64,000 nucleotides of DNA, taken from assembly GCF_003330845.1 (NCBI RefSeq), contig NZ_CP026121.1:6181501-6245500 (forward strand), written 5' to 3'. Positions 3,982 to 13,227 of this stretch are shown in pieces; positions within the stretch are counted from its first letter, which is position 1, and each line of letters starts with the position of its first letter. The position numbers and the translations under genes are program-made. The stretch comes from Streptomyces sp. Go-475. GTDB lineage: Bacteria; Actinomycetota; Actinomycetes; Streptomycetales; Streptomycetaceae. Under the pieces are notes generated by a model that was not told the origin of the DNA, ran no database searches, and was given only the letters and a program-made list of their open reading frames with translations.

Positions 3982-5940
3982 GTGGCGCAGGTGCCGCAGA
4001 CATTCTTCGATGCTCTCGCGGTGCGCACCTGGTGCGGTCTCGCGCTCGAGACGCTGGGGCGGGCGCGTGAGGAGATCGACGCGATCAACGTCTATCCCGT
4101 GGCGGACGGCGACACCGGCACGAACCTGTACCTGACCCTGGAGTCGGCGGTCGCGGCGGTCGAGGCGGTGTTCGTGGGGCACGCGGCGGGCTCGCCGGGG
4201 GCCGAAGGCCCCGGTCCGAAGGAGCCGACCCTGGCCGACGCGGCCCGGGCGATGGCGCACGGGGCGCTGATCGGTGCCCGGGGGAACTCCGGGACCATCC
4301 TCGCGCAGCTGCTGCGCGGCATGGCCCAGGTGCTGGCCGACGGCGCGAGTGTGCAGGCGGACGGCGCGAGCGTGCACGCGGACGGCCAGGGTCTGCGGCT
4401 CGCCCTGCGGCACGCGGCCGACTCCGCCCGCCAGGCCGTGGCCCACCCCGTGGAGGGCACGGTCCTCACGGTCGCCTCGGCCGCGGCCGACGCCGCCGAC
4501 GCCGCCGGCGGTGCCGAGAGCGACTGCGGGAACGTCGCACGGGCCGCCTACGAGGGAGCGCGCGAGGCCCTGGCCGCCACCCCGGACCAGCTGCCCGTGC
4601 TGGAACGCGCCGGGGTGGTCGATGCCGGCGGGCGGGGGCTGGTGGCCGTGCTCGGGGCGCTGGTGGAGACGTTCACGGGGGAGAGGCCGCGCGGGCCGGT
4701 GACGAGCGCGGGGCGGGTGCCGGGGGCCCGGGGTTCCGGGCCGGGAGCCGGGCCGGGGGCCGGGGCCGGGGAGCCGGCGGGGGCGCACGCGCGCGTGGAG
4801 CCGGCGGAGTCCCTCGCGGAGCCCGTCCCGGCTTGCACCGGCGCGGACAGCGCTGCCGGGCCCGGTCGGGGCGGCGCAGGGCCCGTCCCGGCCTGCGTCG
4901 ATCCCGGTGACGGGGCCGGCAGCGCCGCCGCGCCCGGCCAAGGCGGCGCTGAGTCCCTTCCGGCTTGCGCCGACCCCGGTGACGGCGTCGACAGCGTCAC
5001 CGCGCCCGGTCGGGACGGGCCCGCCTTCGAGGTGATCTATCTCCTGGAGGCCGAGGACGACACCGTGGCGCGGTTGCGGGAGCGGCTCGACGGGCTCGGG
5101 GACTCCCTCGTCGTGGTCGGCGGCGACGGGCTGTGGAACGTCCACGTCCATGTCGACGACGCGGGCGCCGCCGTGGAGGCCGGCATCGAGGCCGGGCGGC
5201 CGTACCGGATCCGTATCACGCACTTCGGGGCCGGTGACGTGCACACCACCGGCGCCGAGCGGCCGCCCCGGGAGCGTGCCCAGCGGGCCGTCGTGGCGGT
5301 CGTGCCCGGGGAGGGCCTGGCCGGGCTCTACACCGAGGCCGGCGCCACCACCGTGCTCGCGCGCCCCGGGGAGCCGCCCGCGAGCGGCGAGCTCGTGCAG
5401 GCCGTACGGCGGGCCCACGCGCACGAGGTCGTCCTGCTGCCCAACGACGCCGACCTGCGCCACACCGCCGCTGCTGCGGCCGAGCAGGTCCGCACGGAGG
5501 GCGTCCGCGTCGCCCTCATCCCGACCCGCTCGGCGGTCCAGGGCATCGCGGCCCTGGCCGTGCACGAGCCGGAGCGCCGCTTCGACGAGGACGTCGTGTC
5601 GATGACCTCGGCCGCCGGCGCCACCCGCTACGCCGAGGTCACCGTCGCCGAACGCCAGTCGTGGACGATGGCCGGCATCTGCCAGGCCGGCGACGTGCTC
5701 GGCCTGATCGACGGCGACGTGGCCGTGATCGGCTCGGACGTCACGGCCATCGCCGAGACGGTCCTGGACCGCATGCTCGCGGCCGGGGGAGAGATGGTCA
5801 CCCTGGTCCTCGGCGACGAGGCCCCCGACTCCATCGCCGAGCATTTGGAGGGCCGGGTCCGCGAGGGGTACCTCGCCGTCGACACCGTCGTGTACCGGGG
5901 CGGACGGCAGGGCTCCCTGCTGCTCATCGGCGTGGAGTAG
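3982..5940 (+). CDS. DhaL/DegV-like protein, fatty acid kinase A homologue
   Basis: Resembles FakA (YloV family): an N-terminal DhaL kinase domain and a C-terminal domain that works with a fatty-acid-binding FakB to make acyl-phosphate from exogenous fatty acid. The DhaL part shows INVYPVADGDTGTNLYLT (residues 35-52, metal/nucleotide loop) and LIGARGNSGTILAQ (97-110). At 652 residues it is longer than typical FakA (about 550) because of a Gly/Ala/Pro-rich linker at about 238-345 built from degenerate repeats. GTG at 3982 is chosen for the AGGGAGG before it. In Bacillus the homologue lies just before recG; here an opposite-strand gene pair separates the two. The 3' end overlaps that convergent TPR gene by 17 nt. 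Confidence 0.85.
   Translation: MAQVPQTFFDALAVRTWCGLALETLGRAREEIDAINVYPVADGDTGTNLYLTLESAVAAVEAVFVGHAAGSPGAEGPGPKEPTLADAARAMAHGALIGARGNSGTILAQLLRGMAQVLADGASVQADGASVHADGQGLRLALRHAADSARQAVAHPVEGTVLTVASAAADAADAAGGAESDCGNVARAAYEGAREALAATPDQLPVLERAGVVDAGGRGLVAVLGALVETFTGERPRGPVTSAGRVPGARGSGPGAGPGAGAGEPAGAHARVEPAESLAEPVPACTGADSAAGPGRGGAGPVPACVDPGDGAGSAAAPGQGGAESLPACADPGDGVDSVTAPGRDGPAFEVIYLLEAEDDTVARLRERLDGLGDSLVVVGGDGLWNVHVHVDDAGAAVEAGIEAGRPYRIRITHFGAGDVHTTGAERPPRERAQRAVVAVVPGEGLAGLYTEAGATTVLARPGEPPASGELVQAVRRAHAHEVVLLPNDADLRHTAAAAAEQVRTEGVRVALIPTRSAVQGIAALAVHEPERRFDEDVVSMTSAAGATRYAEVTVAERQSWTMAGICQAGDVLGLIDGDVAVIGSDVTAIAETVLDRMLAAGGEMVTLVLGDEAPDSIAEHLEGRVREGYLAVDTVVYRGGRQGSLLLIGVE
4821..5019 (+). 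repeat. Degenerate coding repeat in the linker of the DhaL protein
   Basis: About three units of 60-72 bp, each encoding a variant of PVPAC...D...AGPGRGGAG (4821-4880, 4881-4951, 4953-5019). They follow a GAGPGAGPGAG-like stretch. The repeats are in frame and lie between the DhaL and C-terminal domains, so they look like an expanded flexible linker rather than a functional domain. Confidence 0.7.
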
Positions 5941-8900
5941 GACCTGTGCCCGCATCCGGCTGGTCCGCCAGGAGCCGGAGCAGTTGCTCGGCCTCCGCCC
6001 GGCGGGCCCGTGCCGCCTCGCTGCTCGCGGCCCCCTCGTCGCCCTGCCCCCCGTACGCCGCCAGCACCGCACGCGCGCGTGCCGCCGCGTCGACCGGCCT
6101 GCCCAGGTCGGCCTCCAGCCGGCCCGCGGCGAGTTCCGAGCCGGTACGGCTGTGCAGCGCACCGTCCCCGAGGGAGGCGAACACCTCGGCCGACACCAGC
6201 ACTCGGGCCAGCGCCTCCTCGAACACGGCCCGGGCCGAGGCCTCGTCGGCGTCCTCGGTGACGGAACGGACCAGCAGGTCGCCGAACTGCCGGTGCGTAT
6301 GCCCGAGTTCGGCCACGAGCTGCTGCCGCGACTCCTCGTCCGCCGCCGTGTCCAGCGCCGCCTCGCACGCCCGGACCGCGTCCGCCATCAGGCCGCGTGC
6401 GTCCTCCAGCCCGTCCCGCCCGTCCGGCCCACCCGGCCTGTCCTGCCCGTCCCGCCCGTCCGGCCCACCCGGCCTGTCCTGCCCGTCCCGCCCGTCGCGC
6501 CCGTCCAGCGCCAGCCAGGCGCGGGCGCGCAGCGAGCGGACCAGCCCCGGGACGTTGCCGAGTTCGCGCCACAGGGAGCCCGCGCGGGCGTAGGCCCGGT
6601 CCGCCTCGGCGGACAGCCCGGCCTCCGCGAGGGACTCCCCGGCCAGGTGGGCGAGGGTCGCGTGGTCCTGCTGCTCGGGCCACTGCCGGGCGATCTCGGC
6701 CGCCTGCAGGCGCCGTTCGGCGGCGGCGCGGTGCTCGCCGAGTTCGCTCAGGCAGTCACCGAGCCACCACAGCGTCTGCACGACCGCCCCGTCGCCGTGC
6801 GTCTCGGCGGTCAGCTCGGGCAGCGCCGACTCCAGCACCTCCGCGGCCTCGGCCCACCGCCCCTGCCGCAGCAGGAACCCGCCGAGCTGCTGCCGGGCCC
6901 AGGCGCCCAGCGTCGCGCTCTCGCCCGCCTCGTCGGCCCAGTGCGCGGCCTCCAGGGCGTGCCCGGCTGCCTCCACGGCATCGCCCCGGTCGCCGACCAG
7001 CTCCGCGAGCTGGAGGTGCAGCTGGGCCCGCCCGGGCGCCTCCAACTGGGCGCCGCCGTGCTCCAGGGCCGCCCGCAGCGCCCGTTCCGCCTCGGCCATG
7101 TCGCCGAGGTGGTGGGCCAGCGAGGCCAGCCGGGCCTCGTACTCCACCGCGAACCAGGGCAGCCCCGCCGCGACGAACGCCGCAGCGCCCCGCGCGAACA
7201 GCTCCGCCGCCGCCTCCAGGTCCCCGGCCAGCCCCGCCAGCTCGCCGAGCATCGCCCGGGCCTCGGCGGCCCGCGCGGCCAGCCGTACGTCCTCCCCGGT
7301 CCGCCCGTCGACGAGCGCCAGGACCTCCCGCACGGCGGCTTCGGCCGCGGCGCGCACCGCGTCCGGGCCGGGCTCCTCGTGCGCCCGGCGCAGCAGGGTC
7401 CGGGCCCGTCCCATCAGGACCGACGCCGTCTGCCGCAGTCCCGTGCCGCCGGCCGCGTACAGCGCGAGGACCTCCTCGTACGGGCCGGCCACGGCCGCGA
7501 CCGCCCCGGCCACGTCACCGGCCAGCGCGCGTACGTACGCGCCACGCGCGCGTGCCGCCAGGGCCTCGCCCGGATCGCCCGCCTCCGCGTAGAGCCCGGC
7601 GGCCCGCTCGAAGAGCGCGACCCCCTCCGGGCCGAGGGACATCGCCTCGTGGTCGGCCATCTCGGCCCGGTCACGCGGGTCCAGCTCGACGCCCTCCGCG
7701 GCGGCGGCGACCGCCGCCCACGCCTCCACGGCGCCCGGCCGCAAGGTGTCCGACAGCCGCCGCGCCTCGGCCAGCAGCGCGGGCAGATCCGGCCGGCCGG
7801 CGACGGGAGCCGCGTCCACCGGGGGAGCGGGCGCCGGGACCGGCCGCACCCCCGGCGACAACCGCACCCCCAGCGGCAGCCGCTCCACCAGCGGCTTCCG
7901 CGCCATACGCGCGCGTGCCCGCTCGCTGACGTACGTCGTGCCGTTGCGCTCGTCGAACCGCGCCGCCAGCGCCAGGGCGCCCGCACGCGCGTGTGCGGCC
8001 AGTTCGCGGGCGGTCCACTCCCGGCCGGCCGGACCGGGCACCTGCCGGTCGCCCAGGCCGAGCCCGGTCAGCCGGTCCATGAGCAGGGCCACCACGCTCA
8101 TGAACTCCAGCTTGCTCTGCGGATGCCCGTCGTCCGTGAAGTACGCCGGCCGCTCGGCGAGCAGCTCCAGTCCCCGCGCCTCGTTGCCGGTCAGCGCGCA
8201 GAACTCCACGTGCTCCGCGTACGCGCCGCGCATGCTCTCCATGGCCCGGACCAGCCGGAAGCCCCGCAGATGGTTGGCCCTGGCCTCGTCCGTGCGGCCC
8301 AGCCGCAGCAGCGGCACGAGGGAGGACGCCAGGGCCGTGTGCGGCTCGTGGGCGCAGGCGTACTCGCCGTCCAGCACCGGCCGCCACAACTGAAGCGCCT
8401 GCGCGTCCCGGCCCAGCTCCGCCTGCCACCAGCCCTGTCCGTGCAGCTCGCAGGCGTGGCAGTCGGCCATGCTGTCGCGGTCGGCCGCCAGCCACGCGGC
8501 GTACGCCCGCTCGGCCCGCGCCACGTCCCCGACATGCGCGGCCACACAGTGCTCGGCGCTGCGCACGGCCCGCTCGGAGTGCCCGGCGAGCCGGTAGCGG
8601 CGCTCCATCTCGCCGAGCCACTTCTCGATCGAGGCGAGCGGGATGTGCGGCTGGTCGAGCATGCCGGACGACACCCACTTGAAGACCCAGTGCAGCGAGT
8701 GGGTCTCGTACGCGTCGAAGTCCTCGGGCCGTTCGTCCCACATGCGCAGCAGCCGCGCGAAGGGGACGAACATCTTCCCCTTCTCGGAGCTGTAGTTGTA
8801 GACCTTCAGCTGGTGCCCGAGCGCCTCGATCACGGCGAGCGGGATGTTCAGCTTCTCGGCCGCCGTCAGCAGCTCCTCCGCGCGCGCGTTGCGGGCCGGC

Positions 8901-8968
8901 CCCTCCGGCTGCTCGGCGTTCTCCGCCATCGCCCGGCGCAGGGCGTCGAAGTCCGTGATCTCGCTCAT
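5924..8968 (-). CDS. Large TPR-repeat protein coupled to the Hsp90-like gene
   Basis: A 1014-residue soluble protein of unknown function, almost wholly alpha-helical. Residues 1-360 are a conserved N-terminal region (VYNYSSEKGKMFVPF, HWVFKWVSSGMLDQP), with helical repeats following; a Pro-rich hinge lies at about 370-390, then many tetratricopeptide-like repeats such as AEAARWADEAGE-type helices. Residues about 830-853 carry two perfect 12-residue repeats (GRDGQDRPGGPD). The ATG at 8968 overlaps the stop of the Hsp90-like gene as ATGA, so the two are translationally coupled. By analogy with eukaryotic Hsp90 co-chaperones, a TPR partner role is plausible but is inference. The 3' end overlaps the convergent DhaL gene by 17 nt. 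Confidence 0.85.
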   Translation of the reverse strand: MSEITDFDALRRAMAENAEQPEGPARNARAEELLTAAEKLNIPLAVIEALGHQLKVYNYSSEKGKMFVPFARLLRMWDERPEDFDAYETHSLHWVFKWVSSGMLDQPHIPLASIEKWLGEMERRYRLAGHSERAVRSAEHCVAAHVGDVARAERAYAAWLAADRDSMADCHACELHGQGWWQAELGRDAQALQLWRPVLDGEYACAHEPHTALASSLVPLLRLGRTDEARANHLRGFRLVRAMESMRGAYAEHVEFCALTGNEARGLELLAERPAYFTDDGHPQSKLEFMSVVALLMDRLTGLGLGDRQVPGPAGREWTARELAAHARAGALALAARFDERNGTTYVSERARARMARKPLVERLPLGVRLSPGVRPVPAPAPPVDAAPVAGRPDLPALLAEARRLSDTLRPGAVEAWAAVAAAAEGVELDPRDRAEMADHEAMSLGPEGVALFERAAGLYAEAGDPGEALAARARGAYVRALAGDVAGAVAAVAGPYEEVLALYAAGGTGLRQTASVLMGRARTLLRRAHEEPGPDAVRAAAEAAVREVLALVDGRTGEDVRLAARAAEARAMLGELAGLAGDLEAAAELFARGAAAFVAAGLPWFAVEYEARLASLAHHLGDMAEAERALRAALEHGGAQLEAPGRAQLHLQLAELVGDRGDAVEAAGHALEAAHWADEAGESATLGAWARQQLGGFLLRQGRWAEAAEVLESALPELTAETHGDGAVVQTLWWLGDCLSELGEHRAAAERRLQAAEIARQWPEQQDHATLAHLAGESLAEAGLSAEADRAYARAGSLWRELGNVPGLVRSLRARAWLALDGRDGRDGQDRPGGPDGRDGQDRPGGPDGRDGLEDARGLMADAVRACEAALDTAADEESRQQLVAELGHTHRQFGDLLVRSVTEDADEASARAVFEEALARVLVSAEVFASLGDGALHSRTGSELAAGRLEADLGRPVDAAARARAVLAAYGGQGDEGAASSEAARARRAEAEQLLRLLADQPDAGTGPTPRR
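6409..6496 (-). repeat. 36-bp coding minisatellite inside the TPR gene
   Basis: Two identical 36-bp units (6409-6444 and 6445-6480) plus a 16-nt start of a third. Each unit begins GCCCGTCCCGCCCGTCCGGC on the plus strand and encodes 12 residues rich in Gly, Asp, Arg and Pro on the minus strand. Copy number changes would keep the frame. Confidence 0.9.
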
Positions 8969-10806
8969 GCCCGGCCGTCCTCGCTGTGCGTGGCCCACTC
9001 CAGGAGGCCGATGAACGCCCGGTTGAGCAGCGCCGAGTCGGCGGGCCGCAGCGGCCGCTGCGCCATCAGCAGCGCCTGCCCGTACAGCGACTCCGTGGCC
9101 GTGCCGATCAGCTCCGGGTCGGGCAGCGCGCCGATCCGCCGCACGAGCGGGTTGAGGTGGTTGAGCACCAGACGCGCGCGGGGGGCGCTGCCGCGCAGGG
9201 AGCCGAGGATGCCCGCCCACAGGTCGTCGGCCCGCGCCTCGGCGTCCGCCCGGGCCTGTTCGTGCCGGGCGTCCCGGTCGTCGAGGTGCAGCGCGGGCAC
9301 GGACAGCGGGTGGAACGCCCGCAGGACGACGTCGCAGCCCAGCGGGTCGAGCCGGGCCCGCGCGGCGGCCAGGAAGCCGGACAGGGCCAGCTCCTCGGCC
9401 GGATCGACCGCGTCCAGGTGCGCGGTCACCGTCTCGGCGTCCAGCTCGGCGACCACCGTCCCCGGCCGCACCGACGGCAGCGCCTGAACCAGCTCGCTGT
9501 CGTACGTGTAACCGCCGTTGATCACGCCGATGCCCTGCGCGGACGCGATCGGCGCGACCTGCCGGTACTCCTCCACCGTCCGCGTGAAGTGCACCACCGG
9601 GTGCCGCTGCGCGAACTCCTCCAGGGACAGCCGCCCGTCGGTCGTCTCGAAGGGCAGCCACGGCAGCATCGTGCGCAGCATCTCCCGGTCGTGCCGGGCC
9701 AGCGACTTCACGCCCAGGTGGTGCACCGACAGGAACGCGGCCAGCCGCTCCGGATCACCGGCCGCGAGGCCGCTCAGCCAGGCGCGGATCCGCTCGCCCA
9801 GCGCCTCCCGTACGGCCGCCAGCGTCTCGTCCTCGTACAGCGCCTCGCGCGAGGCCGTGGGCCGCAGGCTGTCCGTGTCGAGCACGCAGCGCACGAAGAA
9901 CGCCCAGTCGGGCAGCAGCTGTTCGGCCCGCTCGGTCAGCAGCATGCCCTTCAGGTGCACGCGGTGACCGGCGCGCTGGGCCGGGCTGACCGCCGACGGC
10001 AGCACGTACGCGATCCCGCGCACGCCCGCCAGCGGCACGGACAGGTCGATCGTGTCCAGCGGCGTGAAGCCGAACAGGTCCTGGCAGTGCCGGGCGAGGG
10101 CGACGCGGCGGGCCGCCGGGCCCGGATACGGCCGGTCCCAGGGCGCGGGCAGGTCGGTGACCGCCTCGTCGCCCACCCGGACGTCGTACGGCAGCAGCGA
10201 CCCGAAATCCCGGGCCAGCGCCTCGACCCGCTCGGGCGTGAGCCACTCCGCGGCCCCGGCCCGGGCCACCAGGTGCACGGTGGTGCCCGGTTCGGGCCGC
10301 TCGGCGTCCGGCAGGGTCCGCACGGTGTACGAACCGTCGTCGGACGCCGTCCACTCCACGGGCGGCGCCCCGGGCGTACGGGCACTGCGGCTGACGACCC
10401 GGATGCGCTCGGCGACGACGAAGCAGGCCAGCAGGCCGATGCCGAACTGCCCGAGGAAGTCGGACCTGGCCTCCTGAAGGCCCTCGGCGCGCTTGGAACT
10501 GCGCCCGATCGTGGCCAGCAGGCTGTGCACGTCCGCCTCGGTGAGCCCGACGCCGGTGTCCTCGACCCGCAGGGCCCCGCCCTCCGCGCGCAGCCGTACC
10601 CGGGCCGGGGCGCCGGGCTCCTCCGCGCGTCTGGCCGTGATGGCGTCCACGGCGTTCTGCAGCAGCTCGCGCAGGTACACCTTGGGACTGGAGTAGAGGT
10701 GGTGGGAGAGCAGGTCCACCAGACCACGCAGGTCGACCTGGAACGTATGAGGTGATCGGGGGGAAAGGGGTGCCTGGGATGCCTGTGAGGTCTGGGAGTC
10801 CATCAT
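8965..10806 (-). CDS. Hsp90-family (HtpG-like) GHKL ATPase
   Basis: Molecular chaperone-type ATPase of about 613 residues. The Bergerat-fold nucleotide pocket is visible: LRELLQNAVDA (about 46-56, catalytic Glu and Asn), VEDTGVGL (81-88), and FLGQFGIGLLACF (117-129), then GTTVHLVARAG. The middle domain has TASREALYEDET, holding the conserved SRE arginine. It differs from canonical HtpG through much of the C-terminal half and lacks any MEEVD-like tail, so it is a divergent branch. Three possible starts follow each other (GTG 10809, ATG 10806, ATG 10803); no clear Shine-Dalgarno decides, and 10806 is chosen. It is followed by the TPR gene with a 4-nt overlap and is divergent from recG. Confidence 0.88.
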   Translation of the reverse strand: MMDSQTSQASQAPLSPRSPHTFQVDLRGLVDLLSHHLYSSPKVYLRELLQNAVDAITARRAEEPGAPARVRLRAEGGALRVEDTGVGLTEADVHSLLATIGRSSKRAEGLQEARSDFLGQFGIGLLACFVVAERIRVVSRSARTPGAPPVEWTASDDGSYTVRTLPDAERPEPGTTVHLVARAGAAEWLTPERVEALARDFGSLLPYDVRVGDEAVTDLPAPWDRPYPGPAARRVALARHCQDLFGFTPLDTIDLSVPLAGVRGIAYVLPSAVSPAQRAGHRVHLKGMLLTERAEQLLPDWAFFVRCVLDTDSLRPTASREALYEDETLAAVREALGERIRAWLSGLAAGDPERLAAFLSVHHLGVKSLARHDREMLRTMLPWLPFETTDGRLSLEEFAQRHPVVHFTRTVEEYRQVAPIASAQGIGVINGGYTYDSELVQALPSVRPGTVVAELDAETVTAHLDAVDPAEELALSGFLAAARARLDPLGCDVVLRAFHPLSVPALHLDDRDARHEQARADAEARADDLWAGILGSLRGSAPRARLVLNHLNPLVRRIGALPDPELIGTATESLYGQALLMAQRPLRPADSALLNRAFIGLLEWATHSEDGRA

Positions 10807-10989
10807 CACGGCGCCGGTGGGGGACTCGCGACGGCGCGGGGTCGGGCGGTCCCGGTGAGGCGGTGACCGCGAGAAAGGCCGGGGCGCGTCATCCTAAGGC
10901 CGGAACCGGCCGCCTGACCAGGGATTTCCGGGACGTGTACGGCGACCTCCGCCACGGCCTGGGCGCCGATGTCAGTGGCGTGGTGTGCA

Positions 10990-13227
10990 ATGGATCTCGT
11001 GCCCGCACTGGAAGAACCCCTGCGCCAACCGCTGAAGTCGGTGCTCGGCCCCGCCACCGCGAAGGTGATGGCCGAGCACCTCGGCCTGCTCACCGTCGGC
11101 GACCTCCTCCACCACTACCCGCGCAGATACGAGGAGCGCGGCCAGCTCACCCACCTCGCCGACCTCCCCATGGACGAGCACGTCACGGTGGTCGCCCAGG
11201 TCGCCGACGCCCGCCTGCACACCTTCGCCTCCGCCAAGGCCCCGCGCGGCAAGGGCCAGCGCCTGGAGGTCACCATCACGGACGGCAGCGGCCGGCTCCA
11301 ACTGGTCTTCTTCGGCAACGGCGTTCACAAGCCCCACAAGGAGCTCCTGCCGGGCACCCGCGCGATGTTCGCGGGCAAGGTCTCCGTCTTCAACCGCCGC
11401 CTCCAACTCGCACATCCGGCCTACGAGTTGCTGCGCGGCGACCCGGAGGAGTCCGTGGAGACCTGGGCGGGGGCGCTGATCCCGATCTACCCCGCCACCG
11501 CCAAGCTGGAGTCCTGGAAGATCGGCAAGGCGATCCAGACGGTCCTGCCCACGGCCCAGGAGGCCGTCGACCCGCTCCCGGACGGCCTGCGTGAGGGCCG
11601 TGGCCTGGTCCCGCTCCCCGAAGCCCTCCTCAAGATCCACCGCCCGCACACCAAGGCCGACATCGAGGACGCCCGCGCCCGCCTCAAGTGGGACGAGGCC
11701 TTCGTCCTCCAGGTCGCCCTGGCCCGCCGCCGCCACGCGGACGCCCAACTCCCGGCGGTCGCCCGAGAGCCGTCCCCGGACGGCCTCCTCACGGCCTTCG
11801 ACGCCCGCCTCCCGTTCACCCTCACCGAGGGCCAGCAGCGGGTCTCCCGCGAGATCTTCGCCGACCTGGCGACGGAACACCCGATGCACCGGCTGCTCCA
11901 GGGGGAGGTGGGTTCCGGGAAGACCATGGTCGCCCTGCGCGCCATGCTCGCCGTGGTCGACGCCGGCGGGCAGGCCGCCATGCTCGCCCCCACCGAAGTG
12001 CTCGCCCAGCAGCACCACCGGTCCATCGTCGAGATGATGGGCGAGCTGGCCGAGAGCGGCATGCTGGGCGGGGCCGAGCAGGCCACCAAGGTGGTGCTGC
12101 TCACCGGCTCCATGGGCACGGCCGCCCGCCGCCAGGCCCTGCTCGACCTCACCACCGGCGAGGCCGGCATCGTCATCGGCACGCACGCGCTGATCGAGGA
12201 CAAGGTGCAGTTCCACGACCTGGGCCTGGTCGTTGTCGACGAACAGCACCGCTTCGGCGTCGAGCAGCGCGACGCCCTGCGCGGCAAGGGCAAGCAGCCC
12301 CCGCACCTGCTGGTCATGACGGCCACGCCCATTCCGCGCACGGTCGCCATGACGGTCTTCGGCGACCTGGAGACCTCCGTCCTCGACCAGCTCCCGGCCG
12401 GCCGCTCGCCGATCGCCAGCCATGTCGTCCCGGCCGCCGACAAGCCCCACTTCCTGGCCCGCGCGTGGGAACGGGTCCGCGAGGAGGTGGAGAACGGCCA
12501 CCAGGCGTACGTCGTCTGCCCCCGCATCGGCGACGAGGAGGACGACCCGAAGAAGGCCGGCAAGAAGAAGTCCTCGGAAGTCCCCGGGTCCCCCGAGGAC
12601 GCCGCCGAGAAGCGCCCGCCCCTCGCCGTCCTCGACGTGGCCGACCACCTGGCCAAGGGCCCCCTGCAGGGCCTGCGCGTCGAGGTCCTGCACGGCCGGA
12701 TGCACCCGGACGACAAGGACGCGGTCATGCGCCGCTTCGCCGCCGGCGACGTGGACGTCCTGGTCGCCACGACGGTCATCGAGGTCGGCGTCAACGTCCC
12801 GAACGCCACCGCCATGGTGATCATGGATGCCGACCGCTTCGGCGTCTCCCAGCTCCACCAGCTGCGCGGCCGCGTCGGCCGAGGCTCGGCTCCCGGCCTC
12901 TGCCTCCTGGTCACCGAGATGCCCGAGGCGAGCGCCGCCCGCCAGCGCCTCAACGCCGTCGCCTCCACCCTCGACGGCTTCGAACTCTCCCGCATCGACC
13001 TGGAACAGCGCCGCGAGGGCGACGTCCTCGGCCAGGCCCAGTCGGGCGCCCGGACCTCCCTGAAGGTCCTCGCGGTCATCGAGGACGAGGAGATCATCGC
13101 GGAGGCCAGAGAGGAGGCGACGGCGGTAGTGGCCGCCGACCCGGAGCTGGCCGACCTCCCTGCACTTCGGACGGCTTTGGACGCCCTGCTGGACGAGGAG
13201 AGGGAGCAGTACCTGGAAAAGGGGTGA
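10990..13227 (+). CDS. recG: ATP-dependent DNA helicase RecG
   Basis: Helicase that reverses stalled replication forks and processes branched DNA. The 745-residue protein has the N-terminal wedge/OB domain (GDLLHHYPRRYEER near residue 40), Walker A GEVGSGKT at about 305, the DEQH box at about 416, and C-terminal helicase motifs including ATTVIEVGVNVPNA and QLRGRVGRG. There is a charged insert around residues 515-540 (KKAGKKKSSE). The start is uncertain because no good ribosome site is seen: ATG 10990, GTG 10999 and an upstream ATG-like codon at 10969 are all in frame. It precedes rsmD and coaD, a common bacterial order. Confidence 0.97.
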   Translation: MDLVPALEEPLRQPLKSVLGPATAKVMAEHLGLLTVGDLLHHYPRRYEERGQLTHLADLPMDEHVTVVAQVADARLHTFASAKAPRGKGQRLEVTITDGSGRLQLVFFGNGVHKPHKELLPGTRAMFAGKVSVFNRRLQLAHPAYELLRGDPEESVETWAGALIPIYPATAKLESWKIGKAIQTVLPTAQEAVDPLPDGLREGRGLVPLPEALLKIHRPHTKADIEDARARLKWDEAFVLQVALARRRHADAQLPAVAREPSPDGLLTAFDARLPFTLTEGQQRVSREIFADLATEHPMHRLLQGEVGSGKTMVALRAMLAVVDAGGQAAMLAPTEVLAQQHHRSIVEMMGELAESGMLGGAEQATKVVLLTGSMGTAARRQALLDLTTGEAGIVIGTHALIEDKVQFHDLGLVVVDEQHRFGVEQRDALRGKGKQPPHLLVMTATPIPRTVAMTVFGDLETSVLDQLPAGRSPIASHVVPAADKPHFLARAWERVREEVENGHQAYVVCPRIGDEEDDPKKAGKKKSSEVPGSPEDAAEKRPPLAVLDVADHLAKGPLQGLRVEVLHGRMHPDDKDAVMRRFAAGDVDVLVATTVIEVGVNVPNATAMVIMDADRFGVSQLHQLRGRVGRGSAPGLCLLVTEMPEASAARQRLNAVASTLDGFELSRIDLEQRREGDVLGQAQSGARTSLKVLAVIEDEEIIAEAREEATAVVAADPELADLPALRTALDALLDEEREQYLEKG

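Follow-up and report, generated by a model that had tools for sequence, protein, structure and literature searches.

A divergent Hsp90 gene and a TPR-protein gene form a nearly constant pair in Actinomycetota

Results

A divergent member of the Hsp90 family and a TPR protein are encoded by overlapping genes next to recG in Streptomyces sp. Go-475, and the pairing of these two families is nearly absolute. On balance, we consider it probable that the two proteins form a dedicated Hsp90–co-chaperone machine, self-contained and with a single TPR partner. This reading draws on the pairing and its near-exclusivity, the overlapping frames, the catalytic residues, the homology of the Hsp90 over its whole length and the fold of the partner. 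The window analysed here is a 64,000-nt stretch (positions 6,181,501 to 6,245,500 of contig NZ_CP026121.1) of a genome of 8.57 Mb that is assembled as a single contig.

The gene pair and its insertion site

The Hsp90 gene (8965–10809, minus strand; 614 codons from a GTG with ATG codons directly after it) encodes a divergent member of the NF010683 family and is followed by the gene for the TPR partner (5924–8968, minus strand; 1014 aa). As the first-pass annotation had described, the two frames share the 4 nt ATGA (8965–8968, minus strand), in which the Hsp90 stop codon overlaps the TPR start codon. On the left, a YloV/DAK2-fusion gene (3982–5940, plus strand; above the NCBIfam cut-off for that fusion, below the cut-off of the FakA model) converges on the pair, its 3′ end overlapping the end of the TPR gene; on the right, recG (10990–13227, plus strand; RecG match above the NCBIfam cut-off) is divergent relative to the pair. 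Upstream of the Hsp90 gene, a conserved promoter-like block (10891–10920, minus strand; TGGTCA, 18 nt, TAGGAT) is, judging from its sequence, a candidate promoter. The suggested stress role was addressed by a motif scan alone: the heat-shock operator patterns used gave no match in the window's intergenic region, and a sigma-R-like pattern matched 2 of 77 upstream regions.

The proposal that the pair was inserted between a fakA-like gene and recG held up: the flanks are YloV/DAK2 and RecG, and the YloV–recG site is without the pair in 16 of the 17 Streptomyces genomes searched with RecG, with a gap of 30–607 bp between alignment ends. These 16 comprise 13 of the 14 genomes chosen for the search for want of an NF010683 match and three that carry the pair elsewhere; the 17th is G751, whose RecG match was split. 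The loci nearest to the window in the species collection (best 80 of 399) come from Streptomyces with one exception, whose record says no more than actinobacterium. At these 80 named loci, obtained in one scan, the TPR gene is always directly downstream of the Hsp90 gene (80/80), and the window-type pair has both flanks at 66, one at 13 and neither at one. The 14 with incomplete flanks are mostly short or contig-end loci, yet L061 is full length and has no match to the YloV gene.

A divergent Hsp90 distinct from HtpG

The window Hsp90 is distinct from the cell's HtpG, which is encoded elsewhere. Against the NF010683 model ('HSP90 family protein') it scored 864.3 bits over residues 19–611 (cut-off 455), and against the HtpG model 174.9 bits, below the cut-off of 371. 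Another strong Hsp90 match in its own genome, near 720 kb, was taken as HtpG, and a second NF010683 gene lies at 8132661–8134475. That the window protein might simply be the ordinary HtpG of the organism, a possibility raised at first pass, is thus set aside. NF010683 (PRK14083), of which it is a member, is a named, uncharacterised family whose model is silent on partner and function.

What the protein has in common with HtpG, the general bacterial Hsp90, is homology over the whole length and conserved catalytic residues. In the GHKL ATP-binding domain (10162–10749, minus strand; about residues 21–216), the invariant E48 is encoded at 10666–10668; R321 (9847–9849, minus strand), the arginine of the middle-domain SRE motif, is likewise invariant in 15 relatives. 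Indeed, E48, N52, D84, G86 and R321 do not vary across the 15 relatives in the alignment, whose identity goes as low as 24%, confirming that the N-terminal GHKL motifs and the SRE arginine are intact. The C-terminal half, by contrast, had been called unlike HtpG, a description that has to be corrected: it is divergent but homologous, because the family profile aligns over nearly the whole of HtpG (residues 5–611 of the E. coli protein, 2iop). Using hhalign, the match to 21 sequences taken as HtpG was strong over the whole length (E 8.2e-47) and weak for the C-terminal part alone (probability 49%, E 1.8e-4). This part (residues 405–614; 8968–9597, minus strand) lacks a MEEVD tail, which is also absent at the C-terminus of the aligned relatives. 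An AlphaFold2 model of the Hsp90 built with 26 close orthologues reached a pLDDT of 39.7 and was not used.

Apart from falling below the HtpG cut-off, the window Hsp90 differs from HtpG in its neighbour: a profile of the conserved N-domain of the TPR family matched at 0 of 21 control loci from the same phylum, whose Hsp90s fall below the NF010683 cut-off and were taken as HtpG. For E. coli HtpG, no co-chaperones have been identified according to the available part of PMC4428384. Chen et al. 2006 (PMC1525184, in part) distinguished three HTPG groups, A–C, and found two copies in S. coelicolor, the second of which, HTPG2, has 615 aa and belongs to a different group; TPR proteins are not mentioned in the part of that paper available. 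HTPG2 probably belongs to the NF010683-type family. The geldanamycin-insensitive 'HtpG' of S. hygroscopicus, with its N92L change (PMC3603443, in part), was considered as a further family member on account of the L or F seen at the corresponding position in the family, and was rejected as the Streptomyces HtpGs compared also have L.

Co-occurrence and adjacency

NF010683 matches above the cut-off were found in 12 of 396 genomes sampled across the phylum, 95 of 150 from the genus and 46 of 394 from the class; no more than three candidates were scored for each genome in the phylum and class surveys, which may therefore have missed copies. The partner's N-domain was found in 49 of the 394 class genomes. 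Both families were present in 45 of these, the Hsp90 only in 1, the N-domain only in 4 and neither in 344 (Fisher p 2.5e-53 for co-occurrence, with kinship ignored). The first-pass annotation had allowed for the two genes occurring mostly apart, and the survey of co-occurrence and adjacency found the opposite: an N-domain gene lies directly downstream on the same strand at 53 of 54 NF010683 places (one half of a split Hsp90 gene in G800 was left out of this count). At the sole exception, in G325, the Hsp90 frame instead overlaps by 4 nt with that of a 297-aa protein that has TPR matches but is not demonstrably homologous to the partner family. Eight class genomes have two NF010683 places, and each of them has two pairs. 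Of the three two-copy genomes compared, two have each TPR protein closest to those that accompany the same type of Hsp90; G853 (locus L215) gave no clear answer. An NF010683 gene is likewise present in the control genomes of Deinobacterium chartae and Corynebacterium glutamicum.

Of 129 loci, 103 have an overlap of 1 or 4 nt between the end of the Hsp90 frame and the beginning of the TPR frame; the 129 include a miscalled Hsp90 frame (L203), a miscalled TPR start (L166) and a truncated Hsp90 match (L161). Such overlaps point to joint production of the two proteins. An apparent Hsp90–TPR gene fusion at L201 proved to have a stop codon in between, and a fusion was not seen in the loci examined.

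Distances within the two families correlate closely (Mantel r 0.937, n = 50, 0 of 2000 permutations; kinship ignored). Part of this correlation is explained by shared descent, and 53 of the 60 N-domain places in the 394 class genomes are paired with an Hsp90, leaving seven that have none directly upstream. These seven count against the co-chaperone reading, and both observations would suit a linkage that lacks joint function, with the genes being neighbours by common descent or hitchhiking. We regard the latter as highly improbable, given that the same pair occurs at unrelated sites and in two phyla and that adjacency holds at 53 of 54 places.

One of the seven lies in G853, where a single open frame holds a paired N-domain and this additional one. 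In two others, G204 and G695, the unpaired N-domain gene comes immediately after a YbjN-domain gene, and in Actinomyces oris, outside the count of 60 places, one is found one gene away. By locus, YbjN-domain genes scoring above the PF10722 cut-off immediately precede N-domain genes at L265 (5532–6008) and L267 (5969–6448) and stand one gene apart at L170 (4289–4762), none of these N-domain genes having an Hsp90 neighbour; YbjN-domain proteins are perhaps an alternative partner of TPR N-domain proteins.

The TPR partner

The partner begins with a conserved helical N-domain (7889–8968, minus strand; residues 1–360), which carries an invariant C170-x2-C173 (8450–8461, minus strand) and a third invariant cysteine, C205 (8354–8356, minus strand). 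A linker (7790–7888, minus strand; residues 361–393), with low model confidence at 369–390, leads to the C-terminal TPR superhelix (5966–7789, minus strand; residues 394–1001), which is more variable across the family than the N-domain. That this is a 1014-residue TPR protein, as annotated, is borne out by a TPR_12 match just below the gathering score (E 4.7e-6) and by a structural model (pLDDT 89.5) with a confident, LGN-like superhelix. In the model, the superhelix resembles the TPR domains of LGN/Pins, OGT and kinesin light chain, a generic repeat fold shared at ~15–20% identity that does not imply shared function. As the structure comparison with VIA-align covered mainly partner residues 468–1008, we describe the N-domain fold only as helical. 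Eukaryotic Hsp90 co-chaperones were not among the 50 VIA-align matches listed, which excludes nothing, and a search of the PDB with the N-domain profile (E up to 1) likewise found none.

A tandem repeat with 9-bp and 36-bp units inside the TPR gene (window 6405–6506) encodes a collagen-like Gly-Arg-Asp/Pro-Gly stretch that sits in a low-confidence loop of the partner model. For the partner of the second Hsp90 of G853 (L215, 9458–11656; L269; 732 aa), a single frame apparently spans two N-domains, much as Listeria (below) has two N-domain genes in tandem.

Genomic neighbours and defence

The pair is found at sites unrelated to one another, without a third gene that stays constant from lineage to lineage. 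Its neighbours are varied and many are housekeeping-like; they include an RNA 2′-phosphotransferase gene and a 330-aa gene (7 loci each), a MoxR-like and CoxE gene pair (1 locus), a gene identified by eye as secE (3 loci) and others. In the genome of Go-475 itself, the second pair, near 8.13 Mb, is preceded by a conserved gene of ~330 aa that matches no Pfam family (L147, 7472–8458) and has related genes in 7 loci. In G235 (L148, 6297–8565), genes for a MoxR-like AAA protein and a CoxE-type VWA protein directly precede the pair on the same strand, and MoxR, CoxE, Hsp90 and TPR genes there are perhaps a four-gene operon.

Such surroundings bear on whether the pair is an immune or conflict system, with the Hsp90 as a thresholding chaperone and the TPR protein as a sensor or effector scaffold acting against phages or other invaders. 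Its patchy presence (95 of 150 Streptomyces and 46 of 394 class genomes) would fit, as would the MoxR–CoxE genes in G235, such pairs being the core of conflict systems (PMC7159879, in part), and the presence of TIR genes next to a distant Pseudanabaena relative. We nevertheless judge this unlikely. PADLOC returned no match for the TPR protein and matched the Hsp90 in its ATPase part only (TmtA and REase_II models), an effector domain was not found in either window protein, and the neighbours vary and are often housekeeping-like.

In IMG/VR, query P0002 found no relative and the family alignment a single fragment of 25% identity. In the phage collection, both the TPR matches and those places where 80% or more of the Hsp90 is covered are unannotated fragments 1.6–6.6 kb long, and a 156-kb Salmonella contig bears the gammaproteobacterial pair among formate dehydrogenase genes. 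Two PHROG families without assigned function match, one per protein. The earlier suggestion of a toxin- or phage-related role has thus gained no positive evidence from the PADLOC matches to the ATPase part, the one IMG/VR fragment or the varied neighbours.

Similar pairs outside Actinomycetota

While the systematic survey covered Actinomycetota, individual records show related arrangements elsewhere. In a Listeria record, the Hsp90 gene is followed by genes for two tandem N-domain proteins (324 and 320 aa), and in a Paenibacillus record by one for a 353-aa N-domain partner with a 4-nt overlap; the N-domain can therefore stand without the superhelix.

The short partners also matter for the idea that the TPR protein is an obligate Hsp90 substrate with a job unrelated to chaperoning, that is, a client encoded beside its own chaperone. 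Strict one-to-one pairing and the large size of the partner in Actinomycetota would agree with it. Proteins of 320–353 aa, as in Listeria and Paenibacillus, make an obligate folding need less likely, however, and at the recG site of G884 (L268, 6551–9379) the TPR gene is intact (942 aa) although its adjoining Hsp90 is missing; this genome does have another Hsp90–TPR pair elsewhere. All told, we consider a client relationship of this kind rather improbable, more so than an immune role.

In Salmonella, E. coli, Xanthomonas and P. aeruginosa records, a more distant Hsp90-like gene is followed by a gene for a protein of 764–774 aa. The two of these Hsp90-like proteins that were scored (Salmonella, Xanthomonas) fall below the NF010683 cut-off, and the N-domain HMM does not find the gammaproteobacterial partners. 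The E. coli pair is chromosomal, and DNA matching found it in 245 of 5426 complete genomes; in the genome inspected it lies between fdhD and yiiG (L176, 8001–12144). An invariant CxxC is common to the four gammaproteobacterial partners aligned, and hhalign places it, weakly (probability 55%, E 1.2e-4), on C170/C173 of the window partner. The gammaproteobacterial pair is analogous to that of the window and, from these sequence comparisons, possibly homologous. For a Nonomuraea relative of the Xanthomonas-type TPR protein, no Hsp90 match was found within 4 kb.

In Pseudanabaena (L169, 4213–9795), the C-terminal extension of an Hsp90-like protein of 877 aa gives a weak TIR-like match, and the gene of this protein adjoins a TIR gene and a TPR gene. 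The TPR proteins of Pseudanabaena and of locus L150 are not demonstrably homologous to the partner family.

Discussion

The first-pass annotation had proposed a dedicated chaperone/partner module. Co-occurrence, adjacency, overlapping frames and recurrence at unrelated sites speak strongly for it, while its premise of a C-terminal half unlike Hsp90 has not survived. From the gene pair we infer transcription as one unit, a complex, a docking mode, client binding and a physiological role. The Hsp90 and its TPR partner probably share one transcript. Docking on the Hsp90 dimer would most likely fall to the conserved N-domain of the partner; it is the docking candidate because it is found in 53 of 54 partners of the class sample and occurs alone in the two Bacillota. 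The TPR superhelix, the more variable part and the candidate for client binding, may hold or present a narrow set of clients. The Hsp90, which keeps the residues for an ATP cycle, would then act on those clients and not on unfolded protein generally, the co-chaperone restricting it to clients of its own. As to role, leads may lie in conflict systems or in general proteostasis. Several observations weigh against the co-chaperone reading: the Hsp90 has no MEEVD tail, the recG site of G884 has the TPR gene but not its Hsp90, some unpaired N-domain genes have YbjN-domain neighbours, the Nonomuraea TPR gene has no Hsp90 match close by, and the link of the gammaproteobacterial partners to the family is weak.

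Eukaryotic Hsp90 with TPR co-chaperones such as Hop/Sti1 and Cpr6 likewise combines Hsp90 with a TPR partner. There, the partners bind the C-terminal MEEVD of Hsp90 (PMC11687934, in part), whereas that tail is absent from the window Hsp90. MoxR–vWA conflict systems (PMC7159879, in part) also join a chaperone to a dedicated partner, and one MoxR–CoxE pair adjoins an Hsp90–TPR pair; their ATPase is of a different family, however, and Hsp90 is not mentioned in the part of that paper available. An Hsp90–TPR pairing is not mentioned in the available parts of PMC4428384, PMC11687934, PMC3603443, PMC3534079, PMC7159879 and PMC10490939. Among the titles and abstract beginnings listed, a scope that leaves out most subscription journals, no report of a bacterial Hsp90–TPR gene pair was found.

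A broader proposition, to which we lean a little less than evenly, is that bacteria possess an autonomous Hsp90 with an obligate co-chaperone that docks through a cysteine-bearing helical domain and not an EEVD tail, an arrangement spanning Actinomycetota, Bacillota and, in diverged form with the same CxxC, Pseudomonadota. If true, this arrangement would amount to a second solution to the eukaryotic Hsp90–TPR partnership, one that is independent or even ancestral.

The pair suggests a bacterial Hsp90-partner machine, a type of system described otherwise in animals, plants and fungi. Reading it as a dedicated Hsp90 with its co-chaperone predicts a complex, a shared phenotype and shared clients. 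Strictly linked to one partner and absent from many close relatives, the pair offers a small genetic system for asking what a co-chaperone is for, and a point of comparison for the origin of the eukaryotic Hsp90–TPR network.
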